Shown here in pieces: positions 28,169 through 57,846 of a stretch of 59,884 nucleotides of DNA. This stretch comes from an uncultured Clostridia bacterium. Its GTDB lineage: Bacteria; Bacillota; Clostridia; Christensenellales; UBA1242. The notes under the pieces were generated by a model. That model worked only from the letters and a program-made list of their open reading frames with translations. It was not told where the DNA came from and did no database searches. Made by a program: the position numbers and the translations under genes. Where the stretch lies: the NCBI GenBank assembly GCA_945919375.1, contig CAMEJD010000009.1, positions 1-59,884 on the forward strand, written 5' to 3'. Numbering within the stretch: the stretch's first letter is position 1; each line of letters opens with the position of its first letter.

Positions 28169-28245
28169 GCGTCTGTAGCTCAGTTGGATAGAGCACGAGT
28201 CTTCGAAATTCGGTGTCGTTGGTTCGAATCCAATCAGACGCACCA
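28169..28245 (+). tRNA. tRNA-Arg (anticodon UCG)
   Basis: It folds into a full cloverleaf: acceptor stem GCGTCTG/CAGACGC, D arm GCTC...GAGC, anticodon stem CGAGT/ATTCG around the loop CTTCGAA, and T arm GTTGG-TTCGAAT-CCAAT. The loop gives anticodon TCG, which reads CGA and probably CGG (arginine). The CCA end is encoded (28243-28245). Confidence 0.96.
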
Positions 28246-54149: not shown

Positions 54150-54788
54150 TTAACATTCAAAGCAATATTTGTATAAGTCATCAATCACATTTTTTACTCT
54201 TGTGCTCTTGACTTTAAATCCGCTTTTTTCAAGAAGATTTGCATATTCTTTTATTGTTGGCCTAATTAGGTCACACAAATTGTTGCATTTTATATAATTT
54301 AGCGTTGCAATATCTTCCATTAGTTTTTTTGTTACTTTGTGAAAACCTAGTTTTTTCATCTCAAAAATCAATTTCTTAATATAAAGCGAATAGGTGCTGT
54401 TTACAACAACCCCTAATTCGTTAAATTTGTCATTGATTTTTTGCAAGCACTTTTCTGCGTTAAATTTGTAAACAGGGCTATAAAACAATTTTGACGAAAA
54501 GAATTCTTCCAAATTTGTAAACATCATCTCTTTGTCCAAATTGTATATCTTGTCATCCTTTATGTAAAATATCTTGTTTTTATGTTCCTTTGAAATATAT
54601 TCGCTAATATTTTCAAATTTTTCTACCCATTCCACCAAGACGGAATTAACACCTTCGTGAAATTTGTCCAACATATCAAAGATATTTCTTGATGCAACAA
54701 TTTCTATTCCATTTTGCAAAGACACTTGCCTTAGATTATAAAGCATACAATAATTGTCTTTTGACAAAAATATGCATTTTTTGTCCAT
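54150..54788 (-). CDS. Divergent Spo0A-like protein with degenerate receiver
   Basis: The first 100 residues alternate strands and helices like a receiver domain (KCIFLSKDN, IEIVASRN, VNSVLVEWV, KIFYIKDD) but without the phospho-acceptor Asp. Residues of about 110-205 can be laid on the Spo0A DNA-binding domain: NELGVVVNSTYSLYIKKLI on EIGVPAHIKGYLYLREAI, and VTKKLMEDIA ... LIRPTIKEYA on ITKVLYPDIA ... AIRHAIEVAW. The match is weak in the recognition helix, so DNA binding is doubtful. It is 2 nt after the FN3 protein gene and surely cotranscribed. Length 212. Confidence 0.5.
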   Translation of the reverse strand: MDKKCIFLSKDNYCMLYNLRQVSLQNGIEIVASRNIFDMLDKFHEGVNSVLVEWVEKFENISEYISKEHKNKIFYIKDDKIYNLDKEMMFTNLEEFFSSKLFYSPVYKFNAEKCLQKINDKFNELGVVVNSTYSLYIKKLIFEMKKLGFHKVTKKLMEDIATLNYIKCNNLCDLIRPTIKEYANLLEKSGFKVKSTRVKNVIDDLYKYCFEC

Positions 54789-54790
54789 TG

Positions 54791-55840
54791 TTATAAATTC
54801 ATTCCATTGTCAACAAAGTATGAAACTTGTTGTGCTTTTGCGTTTTGTTTTGCTTGGTTCTTAACAAATGTTTCATTTGCCCAATTATAAAGGTCGCCTG
54901 TTAGTTCGTGAGCTTCATATTCCTCTATTGTTCTGTTTGATAATTCTTGAAGTTTTACTGTATAACTTGCAGATTTTGACGCGTTCTTATCTTTAATGCC
55001 ACAGCCGATTGAACTTGTTAGATATTTTACATCATTTCCATTAGATAACCTATATGTACCAAAAATTGTAAAGCAACGATCTCCTTCATCAGCAACTTCG
55101 CTTGAAACAACTTCAAAAGTATAACCTTGCTGCCTATATTTTTCCATAAGCCCAACATATTTATCTGATTTAATAAGATATTTTGCAGAATTGTAATTTG
55201 AATGTTCATCTAGCGTTAAGTCTGAACCCAATAATTTTGCATTCATAGCATCAGAAAGTGTACTGATGTCACTTTTAAATCGTGTTTCACGACTTGCAAC
55301 ATACTCTCTTCCGTCTGATTTTTTTTCATAAGTTTTTGTATAAAGTACATTATCTTCTATATACATGCCAGCAATATTCACAAGGTCGGTTGCACTGTCA
55401 AAACTGTCAACAAATGAAAAGACCGCTTCCGGACTTAAAACATTGTCTGGTATTGTGTATGTTATTGTATCTGACCAAACTGATGAATTATAGTTACCTG
55501 TTGTATCCAATGCTTGAACTTTCATTGTTGAAACTTTGTCGGTTGGCATAAATGAATATGAATTTGTTTCAACTTCATTTTGCTTTCCATTGACATTAAC
55601 ACGATACATATTTGCGTGTTCAACTTCGTCCCAAGAAAGGATATTTGTTTTTTCATCATATGCCAAATTTGTTACTTGACTTAATGTTTCGTGTATTGGT
55701 GTTGGGTTTGTTCCATTTCCTCCACCGATAATCCCTATTTTATTAAGAGCAATAATTCCTGCAGCAACTGCAACACCTGTCCCAGCAATTGTAGATATAA
55801 CCTTTATTATTTTTGACTTCTTTGATTTTTCTTTTTTCAT
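54791..55840 (-). CDS. Membrane-anchored FN3-domain protein
   Basis: ATG 55840 follows GAGGTG; a GTG at 55846 is part of that site. A basic head (KKEKSKKSK) and one membrane segment (about residues 12-35) anchor the protein. Residues of about 50-130 form an FN3-like module (TNLAYDEKTNILSWDEVEHA) of the same kind as in the giant lipoprotein. The remainder (about 135-349) is an unknown outer domain with one Cys pair (DRCFTIFG, SIGCGIKD). It is divergent from a Spo0A-like gene and upstream of another. Confidence 0.75.
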   Translation of the reverse strand: MKKEKSKKSKIIKVISTIAGTGVAVAAGIIALNKIGIIGGGNGTNPTPIHETLSQVTNLAYDEKTNILSWDEVEHANMYRVNVNGKQNEVETNSYSFMPTDKVSTMKVQALDTTGNYNSSVWSDTITYTIPDNVLSPEAVFSFVDSFDSATDLVNIAGMYIEDNVLYTKTYEKKSDGREYVASRETRFKSDISTLSDAMNAKLLGSDLTLDEHSNYNSAKYLIKSDKYVGLMEKYRQQGYTFEVVSSEVADEGDRCFTIFGTYRLSNGNDVKYLTSSIGCGIKDKNASKSASYTVKLQELSNRTIEEYEAHELTGDLYNWANETFVKNQAKQNAKAQQVSYFVDNGMNL

Positions 55841-56009
55841 AATCACCTCATCACTGATTTATCATATTTTACCACATCTTTATTTGCTTTGCAATACTCT
55901 TTTTCTATGCCGGTGTCTCCGCAATGCAATAATAAGTTTTGTACAAAATTTTGATATTTTGAAAATATTTGTAAAAATGTGTTGCATTTTAGATTTTTAT
56001 TTGTTATTA

Positions 56010-56015
56010 TATAAT
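56010..56015 (+). promoter_or_regulatory. -10 element of the plus-strand Spo0A-like gene
   Basis: TATAAT, followed at once by GCTAGGGGG. The start point near 56022 rules out the TTG at 56015 as start codon and supports GTG 56036. Confidence 0.5.
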
Positions 56016-56035
56016 TGCTAGGGGGAAAGAAAAAG

Positions 56036-56755
56036 GTGTTTAATCGGAACAGTGTGATATATTATCATGATAATGACGACAATGATTATTTAAAACTTAT
56101 GGATATTTGTACAAAAATAGGGTTAAGTTTATTTGATTGTCAAAAGTTGGATATATTAACATATATAATGAAAAATATTAACCCTTTATATATTATTGTA
56201 AACAAAAAGCAAAATATAAACACAGGGCTTTTGGTTGATTTTTGCAATATATATCCAAACTTATATGTTTTTCTTATAAATTGCGAAACCGACGAACTTG
56301 CCATGAGCAATTGTTTTAAACTTAACGATATGGAAACCTTGTATTCAAAACTTTACACTCATCACAAGTATTATATCAATCATATGGTTGATACAAAAGA
56401 AGAAAAAAAGTTATTTTATAACCATCTTATTCTTGAATTGGATAAGTTATCATTTAGACCAAAACTTATTGGAGTGAAATACTTGACCGATTTAGTATAC
56501 GAGTTGTACCTTAATTCCGATTCAACTCAAAACAAGTGTTGCAAAGCATATAATATGATTTCATCAAAATATAACATCTCCATCCCCAGCATTGAAAAAG
56601 CAATTAGATTCTCAATCTTGACTGCTTATGCAAGATGTCAAAACAAACAACTGTTTTTAACAATTTCAAAAAACAACAAAACTCCAACAATAAAAGAACT
56701 TGCAAACTATTTGATTGATAAACTAGTGTATATTGCCGACGGAAAAAGTTATTAA
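56036..56755 (+). CDS. Spo0A-like transcription factor with degenerate receiver
   Basis: The C-terminal 110 residues resemble the Spo0A DNA-binding domain: ELDKLSFRPKLIGVKYL, SSKYNISIPSIEKAIRFSI (compare AKKYNTTASRVERAIRHAI) and NNKTPTIKELANYLIDKL (compare AKPTNSEFIAMVADKL). The first 120 residues fit a receiver fold (NSVIYYHDN, PLYIIVNKKQN, NLYVFLINCE), but the strand-3 Asp that takes phosphate is replaced (Asn in IVNKK), so control by phosphorelay is unlikely. The start is GTG 56036, after GGGGG and the likely transcript start. Spo0A controls sporulation entry; this one may be an orphan regulator of the neighbouring surface gene. Confidence 0.68.
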   Translation: MFNRNSVIYYHDNDDNDYLKLMDICTKIGLSLFDCQKLDILTYIMKNINPLYIIVNKKQNINTGLLVDFCNIYPNLYVFLINCETDELAMSNCFKLNDMETLYSKLYTHHKYYINHMVDTKEEKKLFYNHLILELDKLSFRPKLIGVKYLTDLVYELYLNSDSTQNKCCKAYNMISSKYNISIPSIEKAIRFSILTAYARCQNKQLFLTISKNNKTPTIKELANYLIDKLVYIADGKSY

Positions 56756-56783
56756 AAAAAAGACCAAAAATTTGGTCTTTTTT
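56755..56783 (+). terminator. Terminator after the plus-strand Spo0A-like gene
   Basis: The stem AGACCAAA/TTTGGTCT with A and T runs outside; six T follow on the plus strand. Confidence 0.85.
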
Positions 56784-56805: not shown

Positions 56806-57501
56806 CTAACCATACTGACAAATTTCGGCACGTTTTATTGTACTTTCTCTTTGCAATTTATGAAAATGGTTATCACTAGTTGAGAGCATTTTTGCGGTGG
56901 ACTGAATATTTATTAGATTTTCAAAACGCAAACCGGCTCCAATTTTGTTTATTAGTGTTGCAACTTTTTTATGACTTTGTATTTTAACGAAGATTTTTTT
57001 GAAGTCAATCAAACTCAAAAGAATTATAATCGATTCAATTCCGTCTTCCAACGCATTGGCATATGCCATAACCATTATGTCATATATCACAAGTAATATA
57101 TTAGGTAAAAGATACATTACTTTTATTGAGTCGAGATTTTTTTTGTATAGTGCAATTGTACACCAAGAATATGTCAAAATTGGGATGATATCAAAAACTG
57201 TATTTAAGTTTATTGACCCCAAAATGATAAATCCTGCAACAAACAAAAATCCCAATGTCTTTGGCGCTTGCTTTGATTGTGCTTCATAAAGATAGTAAAC
57301 CAAACTTTGCACACAAGACAAAAATACAATAAGACCCGCACCGATAGAATTAACAAAAACAAAAGTTAATCCATATGCTACTTCCCCTACTAGACTAAAA
57401 AACAAAAATGTCTTTTTAGTTTTTACCGTGTAGGATAAGCATAGCATCAATGTCGCAGTCAATCCAAATACTTGGGCGAGAACCTCGCTGACAGTTGACA
57501 T
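56806..57501 (-). CDS. YgjV-family inner membrane protein
   Basis: The first 165 residues hold about six membrane segments with the look of the Imp-YgjV family (AQVFGLTATLMLCLSYTVKTKK, SLVGEVAYGLTFVFVNSIGAG in part, ILTYSWCTIALYKKNLDS). E. coli YgjV has no known function. A soluble basic tail of about 60 residues follows (KKIFVKIQSHKKVATL, STIKRAEICQYG). AAAGGATT precedes ATG 57501. The gene lies directly downstream of a structured RNA with no terminator between them. Confidence 0.8.
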   Translation of the reverse strand: MSTVSEVLAQVFGLTATLMLCLSYTVKTKKTFLFFSLVGEVAYGLTFVFVNSIGAGLIVFLSCVQSLVYYLYEAQSKQAPKTLGFLFVAGFIILGSINLNTVFDIIPILTYSWCTIALYKKNLDSIKVMYLLPNILLVIYDIMVMAYANALEDGIESIIILLSLIDFKKIFVKIQSHKKVATLINKIGAGLRFENLINIQSTAKMLSTSDNHFHKLQRESTIKRAEICQYG

Positions 57502-57535
57502 TTTACTAGAATCCTTTTATATAATCACCACAAAC

Positions 57536-57811
57536 CATTAGCCTTACTACCATAGATTGGATAGGATTGCCTTTTATTGAGCATTGCCTTTGCTTTTATA
57601 GGTAAGACCCCACATTTAGTAAGAATTTGCGATTTAGATTTCTTGCAAATCTGCAAGATGCACCAGGACTTGTGATATCACTTTGACCACAATAGAAGTG
57701 TTAAAATTTATCTACCCGTTAACTAGTAAAACGGACGTTTCGTTTGCAACACCCACTTCTTTATGGTAACTAAAATAGTCCCAAAAGTGATATGAATCTA
57801 TGCCTAATGAC
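57536..57811 (-). ncRNA. Candidate structured RNA, probable 5' leader of the YgjV-family gene
   Basis: The minus-strand RNA from about 57811 has a set of nested helices. P1 closes the whole element: 57804-57809 with 57536-57541, and 57795-57802 with 57551-57558 (8 bp). P2 is 10 perfect pairs (57784-57793 with 57675-57684). P3 is 7 pairs (57754-57760 with 57694-57700) and P4 a hairpin (57730-57734 with 57716-57720). P5 is a 6-bp hairpin (57642-57657). A pseudoknot, GGACU/AGUCC (57777-57781 with 57666-57670), crosses P2. I found none of the conserved motifs of tmRNA, RNase P, 6S, SRP or T-box RNA. It could be a riboswitch-like leader or a stand-alone RNA such as the raiA class. Confidence 0.6.
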
Positions 57812-57817
57812 ATTTAT

Positions 57818-57846
57818 ATTATAATACACAACTAAAAAAAACGCAA
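57818..57846 (-). promoter_or_regulatory. Predicted promoter of the structured RNA and YgjV-family gene
   Basis: TTGCGT (57841-57846), 17 nt, perfect TATAAT (57818-57823). The start point near 57811 coincides with the 5' end of helix P1. Confidence 0.6.

Follow-up and report, generated by a model that had tools for sequence, protein, structure and literature searches.

What kind of RNA lies ahead of a membrane-protein gene in an uncultured Clostridia bacterium, and where does that RNA end? The stretch analysed here (the window: positions 1 to 59,884, hence 59,884 nucleotides, of contig CAMEJD010000009.1 in assembly GCA_945919375.1) carries a YgjV-family gene on its minus strand, and a preliminary description had placed, downstream of a TATAAT box and ahead of the gene's start codon, a probably pseudoknotted RNA of about 275 nt. 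These boundaries proved too short: the alignments indicate that the conserved RNA runs past the start codon and into the coding sequence. The comparison points to the mRNA of a YgjV-type membrane protein whose structured 5′ leader is complementary to the 3′ end of its own coding sequence and is predicted to fold back on it, likely as a translational latch, a reading to which we give about an even chance of being right.

Complementarity between the leader and its own coding sequence

The leader is complementary to stretches 800-900 letters downstream, in the end of the same gene. The alignments show that the leader head could pair with two or three stretches (LR1, LR2 and LR3) in the final third of the gene, and that a mid-coding segment has two complements, the first codons (LR5) and the coding end (LR4). 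The strands of these potential long-range helices are:

57744-57753 with 56954-56963, minus strand: LR1, leader strand GGUGUUGCAA in the head domain and coding strand UUGCAACACU
57777-57781 with 56899-56903, minus strand: LR2, GGACU in the leader and AGUCC in the coding sequence
57721-57729 with 56873-56881, minus strand: LR3, leader strand UUACUAGUU and coding strand AACUAGUGA
57063-57075, minus strand: mid-coding segment AUGGUUAUGGCAU, codons for Met-Val-Met-Ala-Tyr-Ala, with the codons conserved
57068-57075 with 56866-56873, minus strand: LR4, mid-coding strand AUGGUUAU and coding-end strand AUAACCAU
57063-57068 with 57496-57501, minus strand: LR5, UGGCAU and AUGUCA, the latter at the start codon

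LR1, which joins GUGUUGCA in the leader to UGCAACAC in the coding sequence, extends over 9-12 bp in 12/12 genomes with a head domain. LR3 (CUAGU with ACUAG) reaches 6-9 bp in the same 12/12, and the pair before its core is A-U in G000 and G010, G-C in G001, G002, G015, G013 and G011, and G-U in G009 and G023. Six genomes of clade C (G014, G007, G004, G016, G008 and G111) have no head insertion, and both strands of LR1 and of LR3, in the leader and in the coding end, are missing from all six. All five pairs of LR2 are standard in 18/18 genomes, with a sixth pair in 15/18. The leader strand of LR2 had been assigned to a pseudoknot, GGACU with AGUCC, within the leader. That pairing reduces to GGAC with GUCY (each pair standard in 16-18 of 18 genomes) and shares two bases with P1, the outermost leader helix described below; as a partner it does worse than the coding 3′ end, where five pairs are standard throughout.

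When conserved helices were ranked over the whole alignment of 1153 columns, LR1 came first with a score of 20.6, ahead of the leader helices P2 and P1, and LR2, LR4 and LR5 fell within the top eight. Eight helices scored at least 12; block permutations gave one such helix in 3/20 runs and none in 17/20, with a top score of 13.8. By position the long-range helices cross one another, LR1 with both LR3 and LR4. The last codons of the gene, AUGGUUAG (56806-56813, minus strand), repeat the mid-coding strand AUGGUUAU, and by eye AUAACCAU could pair with either copy in 9/18 genomes.

Leaders that came to light later offer a separate look at these helices. The leader model alone added four genomes; one (G642) holds a fragment that was not aligned and three hold complete leaders. 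LR1 is present in 3/3 of the complete ones, at 10-11 bp, and the coding end had played no part in finding them. Its outer pair is U-A in two of them, with the encoded leucine changed to glutamine, and the third has histidine. One of the three, G620, has the leader and LR1 together with an interrupted YgjV frame and no LR2; G620 and G642 (loci L089 and L091) are possibly decaying copies.

The nucleotides of the coding motifs appear to be conserved beyond what the amino acids call for. Where amino acids are equal, codon identity between clades exceeds expectation (observed/expected 1.5-2.4) at codons 1-16, 145-152, 176-190 and 197-212, against 0.75-1.35 in other codon windows, and a conserved choice of codon is likewise seen at codons 2, 4, 16 and 23. 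The rare codons TCC for Ser201, CAG for Gln200 and GCC for Ala148 are fixed (13/13, 12/12 and 13/13); these counts refer to 14 genomes left after four near-duplicates were dropped, the denominator being the genomes with that residue. For Ser23, TCC is used in 15/18 genomes with the RNA versus 0/13 YgjV paralogues without it, 12 of which have serine there, and these 13 paralogues mostly have other codons or residues at the aligned sites. Within codons 1-23 (57433-57501, minus strand), AAUGUC at codons 3-4 and GACAUU at codons 16-18 could form a local helix in some genomes, which would compete with LR5. Synonymous divergence between G013 and G001 is 1.24 in the core of the gene and 0.28 in the tail.

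The reading frame of G023 ends early: translation crosses the LR1 partner in a different frame before reaching the stop codon, and the partners of LR2, LR3 and LR4 lie after the stop, in non-coding sequence. An assembly slip is unlikely, because protein cluster P0019, on four contigs, ends in the same way. Compensatory change, altered amino acids and a disrupted frame have apparently left the LR1 complementarity in place.

The leader, its transcription unit and its relatives

The leader itself (local helices labelled P, with strands a, b and c) is laid out as follows:

57502-57811, minus strand: structured 5′ leader from the predicted transcript start to the start codon (alignments and covariance model R1)
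57803-57809 with 57661-57667, minus strand: helix P1, 5′ CAUUAGG and 3′ CCUGGUG (covariation)
57795-57802 with 57551-57558, minus strand: end pairing a-c, strand a CAUAGAUU and strand c AAUCUAUG, 8 bp
57784-57793 with 57675-57684, minus strand: helix P2, 10 bp (covariation)
57652-57657 with 57642-57647, minus strand: hairpin P4, 5′ CUUGCA, of variable length by eye
57635-57641, minus strand: segment b, AAAUCUA, read by eye as a possible anti-Shine-Dalgarno strand with its partner at 57510-57518
57625-57631 with 57529-57535, minus strand: helix P6, 5′ CGCAAAU, both-sided changes in 3/7 pairs
57619-57624 with 57542-57547, minus strand: helix P5, 5′ UCUUAC, both-sided changes in 4/6 pairs

The preliminary description had named covariation across relatives as its check, and the comparison upholds a structured RNA. 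Over 17 sequences and 50 pairs (834 cells), standard pairs fill 94.5% of cells, compared with 39-45% when partners are slid by 1-3 columns; 28/50 pairs show both-sided changes, and 0/500 shuffles reach the observed covariation score, which argues against chance for the leader helices. Single-sequence folding of the leader was weak (z -2.0) and was not used as evidence. The comparison supports a covarying leader built from P1, P2, P5-P6 and P8, in which P1 and P2 would enclose domain I and P5 and P6 domain II, with the pseudoknot a-c. P1, which had not been listed before, is the outermost covarying helix (both-sided changes in 6/7 pairs, 99.2% of cells paired), a place previously given to the end pairing. 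The 10-bp helix described earlier is P2 and holds, with both-sided changes in 7/9 tested pairs. The 8-bp end pairing survives as a pairing, standard in 100% of cells across 17 genomes; its changes are one-sided only (3/8 pairs vary), and it crosses P1. Since strand a sits inside P1 and strand c inside P5-P6, a-c is predicted to form a pseudoknot that ties domains I and II together, in keeping with the earlier call of a pseudoknotted RNA. P8 has both-sided changes in 3/3 pairs; P7 is less secure (5/7 pairs, with 76.5% paired), and P4 is paired in 88% of cells for three of its pairs without a both-sided change. In the loop of P8 the letters GGC (57586-57588) are invariant in the 18 aligned genomes; the model leaves them unpaired, and they are a candidate for a contact or for ligand binding. 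Segment b may serve as an anti-Shine-Dalgarno strand and may compete as a partner of a: by eye, its pairing with a or with the Shine-Dalgarno site suits most genomes, is missing in G124 and G024, and is weak in G111.

The leader had matched no common class of RNA, and the Rfam check agrees. Against Rfam 15, the leader in the window has no match at the gathering threshold and, at permissive settings, only hits far short of it (the best is SNORA27, at 18.6 bits versus 64, E 0.69), and seven leader loci give only matches far below threshold. The only gathering-level Rfam match in the window is a tRNA at 28169-28242.

Around the leader, the predicted transcription unit comprises:

57841-57846, minus strand: TTGCGT, weak -35 candidate (sequence)
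57818-57823, minus strand: TATAAT, -10 hexamer of the predicted promoter (sequence; a -10-like hexamer at the same place in 18/18 genomes)
57510-57518, minus strand: Shine-Dalgarno-like AAAAGGAUU (sequence)
56806-57501, minus strand: YgjV-family coding sequence, 231 aa, seven predicted helices (PF10688; AlphaFold2 model)
56754-56783, minus strand: predicted intrinsic terminator, a palindrome that would close the transcript (hairpin and T run behind the gene)

The TATAAT noted earlier is present, and by eye a -10-like hexamer stands immediately before the RNA in every relative (13 TATAAT, 4 TATACT and 1 TATGAT), a count that a non-overlapping pattern search repeats at 18/18. Likewise, the consensus scan lists no terminator-like site between the -10 box and the start codon at 57501, as had been stated. 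The promoter at 57818-57823 goes unlisted in that scan because its -35 is poor, and the promoter total of the scan is at chance level (7 vs 6.7). The terminator hairpin and T run behind the gene recur in 18/18 genomes, at -5.4 to -14.8 kcal/mol; the scan lists the palindrome at 56754-56783 as a terminator for the plus strand only. Support for promoter and terminator comes from conservation. Together, the -10 box and the terminator bracket a predicted transcript of about 1.06 kb in the window.

The protein matches PF10688 (YgjV family) at 62.1 bits against a cut-off of 23.5, reaching the Pfam gathering score. Its AlphaFold2 model has seven helices followed by a tail (residues 175-231) at low confidence, as disordered segments are; it is this tail whose codons hold the partners of the leader. 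A Foldseek search of the model against the Protein Data Bank (PDB) gave nothing at E 0.001 or better, with eukaryotic SWEET chains appearing at E about 2 amid unrelated chains. In seven genome pairs the core has dN/dS (non-synonymous to synonymous divergence) of 0.09-0.27, which is purifying selection on the core protein.

The neighbouring genes differ between clades, in at least six different gene neighbourhoods; gene and RNA would therefore form an independent unit. Neighbours by clade (loci L059-L075) include a sporulation-type sigma factor with methionine gamma-lyase, a DnaA/IstB-type ATPase, UvrB, a collagen-repeat protein and a DegV protein. The sigma-factor locus, compared between genomes, has other content at that site, which bears no verdict on mobility. 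Beyond the terminator, a convergent gene at 56015-56752 encodes a protein with the Spo0A C-terminal DNA-binding domain (PF08769), and the palindrome could serve both genes. The proteins at 54794-55846 (351 aa) and 54153-54788 (212 aa) have no Pfam match at E 0.001.

The leader occurs once in the window's 1.16-Mb genome. A DNA search found it in 10/99 genomes (the window's own included), all of the window's genus, and model R1 matched 18/247 genomes of the family and, in a larger draw, 22/309. All 21 complete leaders precede a YgjV-type coding sequence, whose frame is interrupted in one case; this fits the earlier suggestion that the RNA acts in cis on the YgjV gene and argues against its alternative, a free processed RNA apart from the gene. 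From the protein side, YgjV matches occur in 68/197 family genomes; the 17 best places found are the long YgjV form, with a homologous leader directly before the start codon in 17/17, and the RNA model, at E up to 10, matches none of 13 loci of shorter paralogues. An order-wide draw of 396 genomes gave R1 matches only in two, both of the window's genus; few first-look candidates per genome were scored, under strict filters, and weak relatives can be missed. A scan of named genomes returned 17 loci (uncultured Clostridia or Christensenella) in genomes already found, and the named members with the RNA are metagenome assemblies. The protein search yielded 38 clusters among the 7999 best candidates scored, and viral contigs held no relative of the YgjV protein.

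A possible translational latch and its rivals

How might such a fold-back work? With few ribosomes on the message, the coding end would dock into the leader head. The docked state would hold the first codons, and perhaps the ribosome site, so that translation would stay low. Ribosomes reaching the end of the frame, or a metabolite, an ion or the YgjV protein itself, might then open or stabilise the latch. Masking of the start codon by LR5 was considered as one form of this, and it is weakened by the later leaders, where the motif sits at codons 3-5.

Several observations weigh against the latch. We infer the link from long-range pairing to translation, because the long-range strands sit in the leader head and not at the Shine-Dalgarno site. 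LR2, LR4 and LR5 show one-sided changes only, and each alone scores 12.0-12.8, within reach of the best permutation. In a parallel-strand control, one run within the mid-coding palindrome scored high (16.6), with nothing else above 11.2. Per-genome duplex energies under codon shuffling, which were supplemented by column-wise tests, were mixed, for example LR1 at 64/300 in G000 and 2/300 in G024, and LR4 at 258/300 in G007. The later leaders also count on this side: LR2 is found in 2/3, missing on both sides in G620; LR3 is kept in 0/3, absent on both sides in two and present on the leader strand only in G620; and the LR5 motif does not lie at the start codon itself in any of them. The loss of the head in clade C is possibly a single event and may count as one loss, and the number of independent lineages is small. 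The reduction of synonymous change in the tail is strong in 1/7 genome pairs (G013-G001), slight in two and absent in four (three clade C pairs and G001-G002). The 22nd R1 match, in G642, is a fragment of 101 bases (E 3e-4); the 3.1 kb of surrounding DNA contains no YgjV relative, and the match is either a remnant or due to chance.

The same complementarities would also suit a different kind of molecule: one ornate RNA of about 1 kb, serving as a membrane protein's message and at the same time as a compact pseudoknotted RNA machine in which the 3′ half of the fold would come from the coding sequence. Translation and folding would then be mutually exclusive, giving a bistable latch or an RNA that acts with its protein; the folded RNA would be the selected product (for example, as a membrane-associated ribonucleoprotein with the encoded YgjV), and the frame would have come to run through its 3′ domain. 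The crossing of LR1 with LR3 and LR4 resembles one compact fold more than a simple fold-back, G023 dispenses with the predicted-disordered coding tail while retaining the RNA motifs, and RNA and gene stay together in every complete leader. However, no complete copy without YgjV coding sequence is among those found, the protein matters too since its core is under purifying selection, and no trans function is known for this RNA. The idea is unlikely. An ordinary riboswitch-like leader is doubtful to a slightly greater degree. Here the functional RNA would be the 5′ leader only, with a ligand linked to a PnuC-like transporter, and the conservation of the coding motifs would have some other cause. 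The leader is indeed conserved and structured upstream of one gene family, as riboswitches are, but this leaves the conserved codons and the joint loss of leader and coding strands unexplained, and there is no Rfam riboswitch match.

Could the coding motifs be kept simply as protein (ATL, LQS and TSDNH in the tail) or for codon speed, with their complementarity to the leader coincidental? Of the 25 protein clusters read, 19 have ATL and 21 have LQS or something close to it, as expected of conserved protein motifs. This is nonetheless very unlikely given that in G023 the nucleotide motifs persist in another frame or beyond the gene, that the later leaders alter the amino acid and retain the pairing, and that the rare CAG and TCC codons are fixed in the non-redundant genomes with those residues. 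Least probable of all is that the unit is a self-splicing intron, or an RNA of transposon type, that carries a reading frame within it. A frame between two structured RNA parts and the varied gene neighbourhoods are what such an element would show, but a -10 box and a terminator enclose the unit in 18/18 genomes, no interrupted host gene was seen, and neither group I nor group II introns match in Rfam at E up to 1.

Comparison with known systems

Structured-RNA searches in bacteria mostly target intergenic regions. In this case, the most conserved helix of a leader of unassigned type appears to be the one with the far end of the coding sequence. If the latch reading is true, the ends of coding sequences would be worth searching for partners of other orphan leaders, and the RNA would offer a direct way into the YgjV family of uncharacterised membrane proteins. 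Among the papers searched, none joins YgjV with RNA and riboswitch, and no title or abstract opening describes this layout.

Introns in general share one feature with this element, a reading frame between structured RNA parts. IStrons, which the available part of the source presents as intron RNAs combined with reading frames (PMC4227781), differ in that the element described here has its own promoter box and terminator, with no interrupted gene seen and no intron core match in Rfam. The NAD+-II riboswitch (pnuC motif) is alike in position: in the accessible portions of the two sources, it is a structured, pseudoknotted leader before a transporter of the PnuC kind (PMC7749635, PMC10085692). 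The present RNA is far larger, extends into the coding sequence and has no Rfam match. OLE RNA is alike in another respect: it is large and ornate, occurs in Gram-positive bacteria and forms a ribonucleoprotein located at the membrane, as outlined in the part of the source that was available (PMC12265935). There is no Rfam OLE match here, and the membrane protein is encoded inside the RNA.

A further likeness is to the type I toxin mRNAs hok and aapA, in which, according to the available part of the source (PMC6733600), pairing of the 5′ end with the 3′ end across the reading frame keeps translation low. These are bacterial mRNAs with a 5′-3′ long-distance interaction, and conserved complementarity of that type was found here (LR1 in 12/12 genomes and 3/3 later leaders; LR2 in 18/18 and 2/3). 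As described in that part of the source, hok and aapA encode small toxic peptides with an antisense antitoxin, whereas the present gene encodes 231 aa with seven predicted helices, which is not a small toxic peptide. Unlike in hok and aapA, the coding end has no demonstrated direct pairing to the ribosome site, the partner lies inside the coding end, and the leader is a pseudoknotted RNA of 250-330 nt. If the fold-back is real, conserved systems of this kind would extend beyond the toxin mRNAs.
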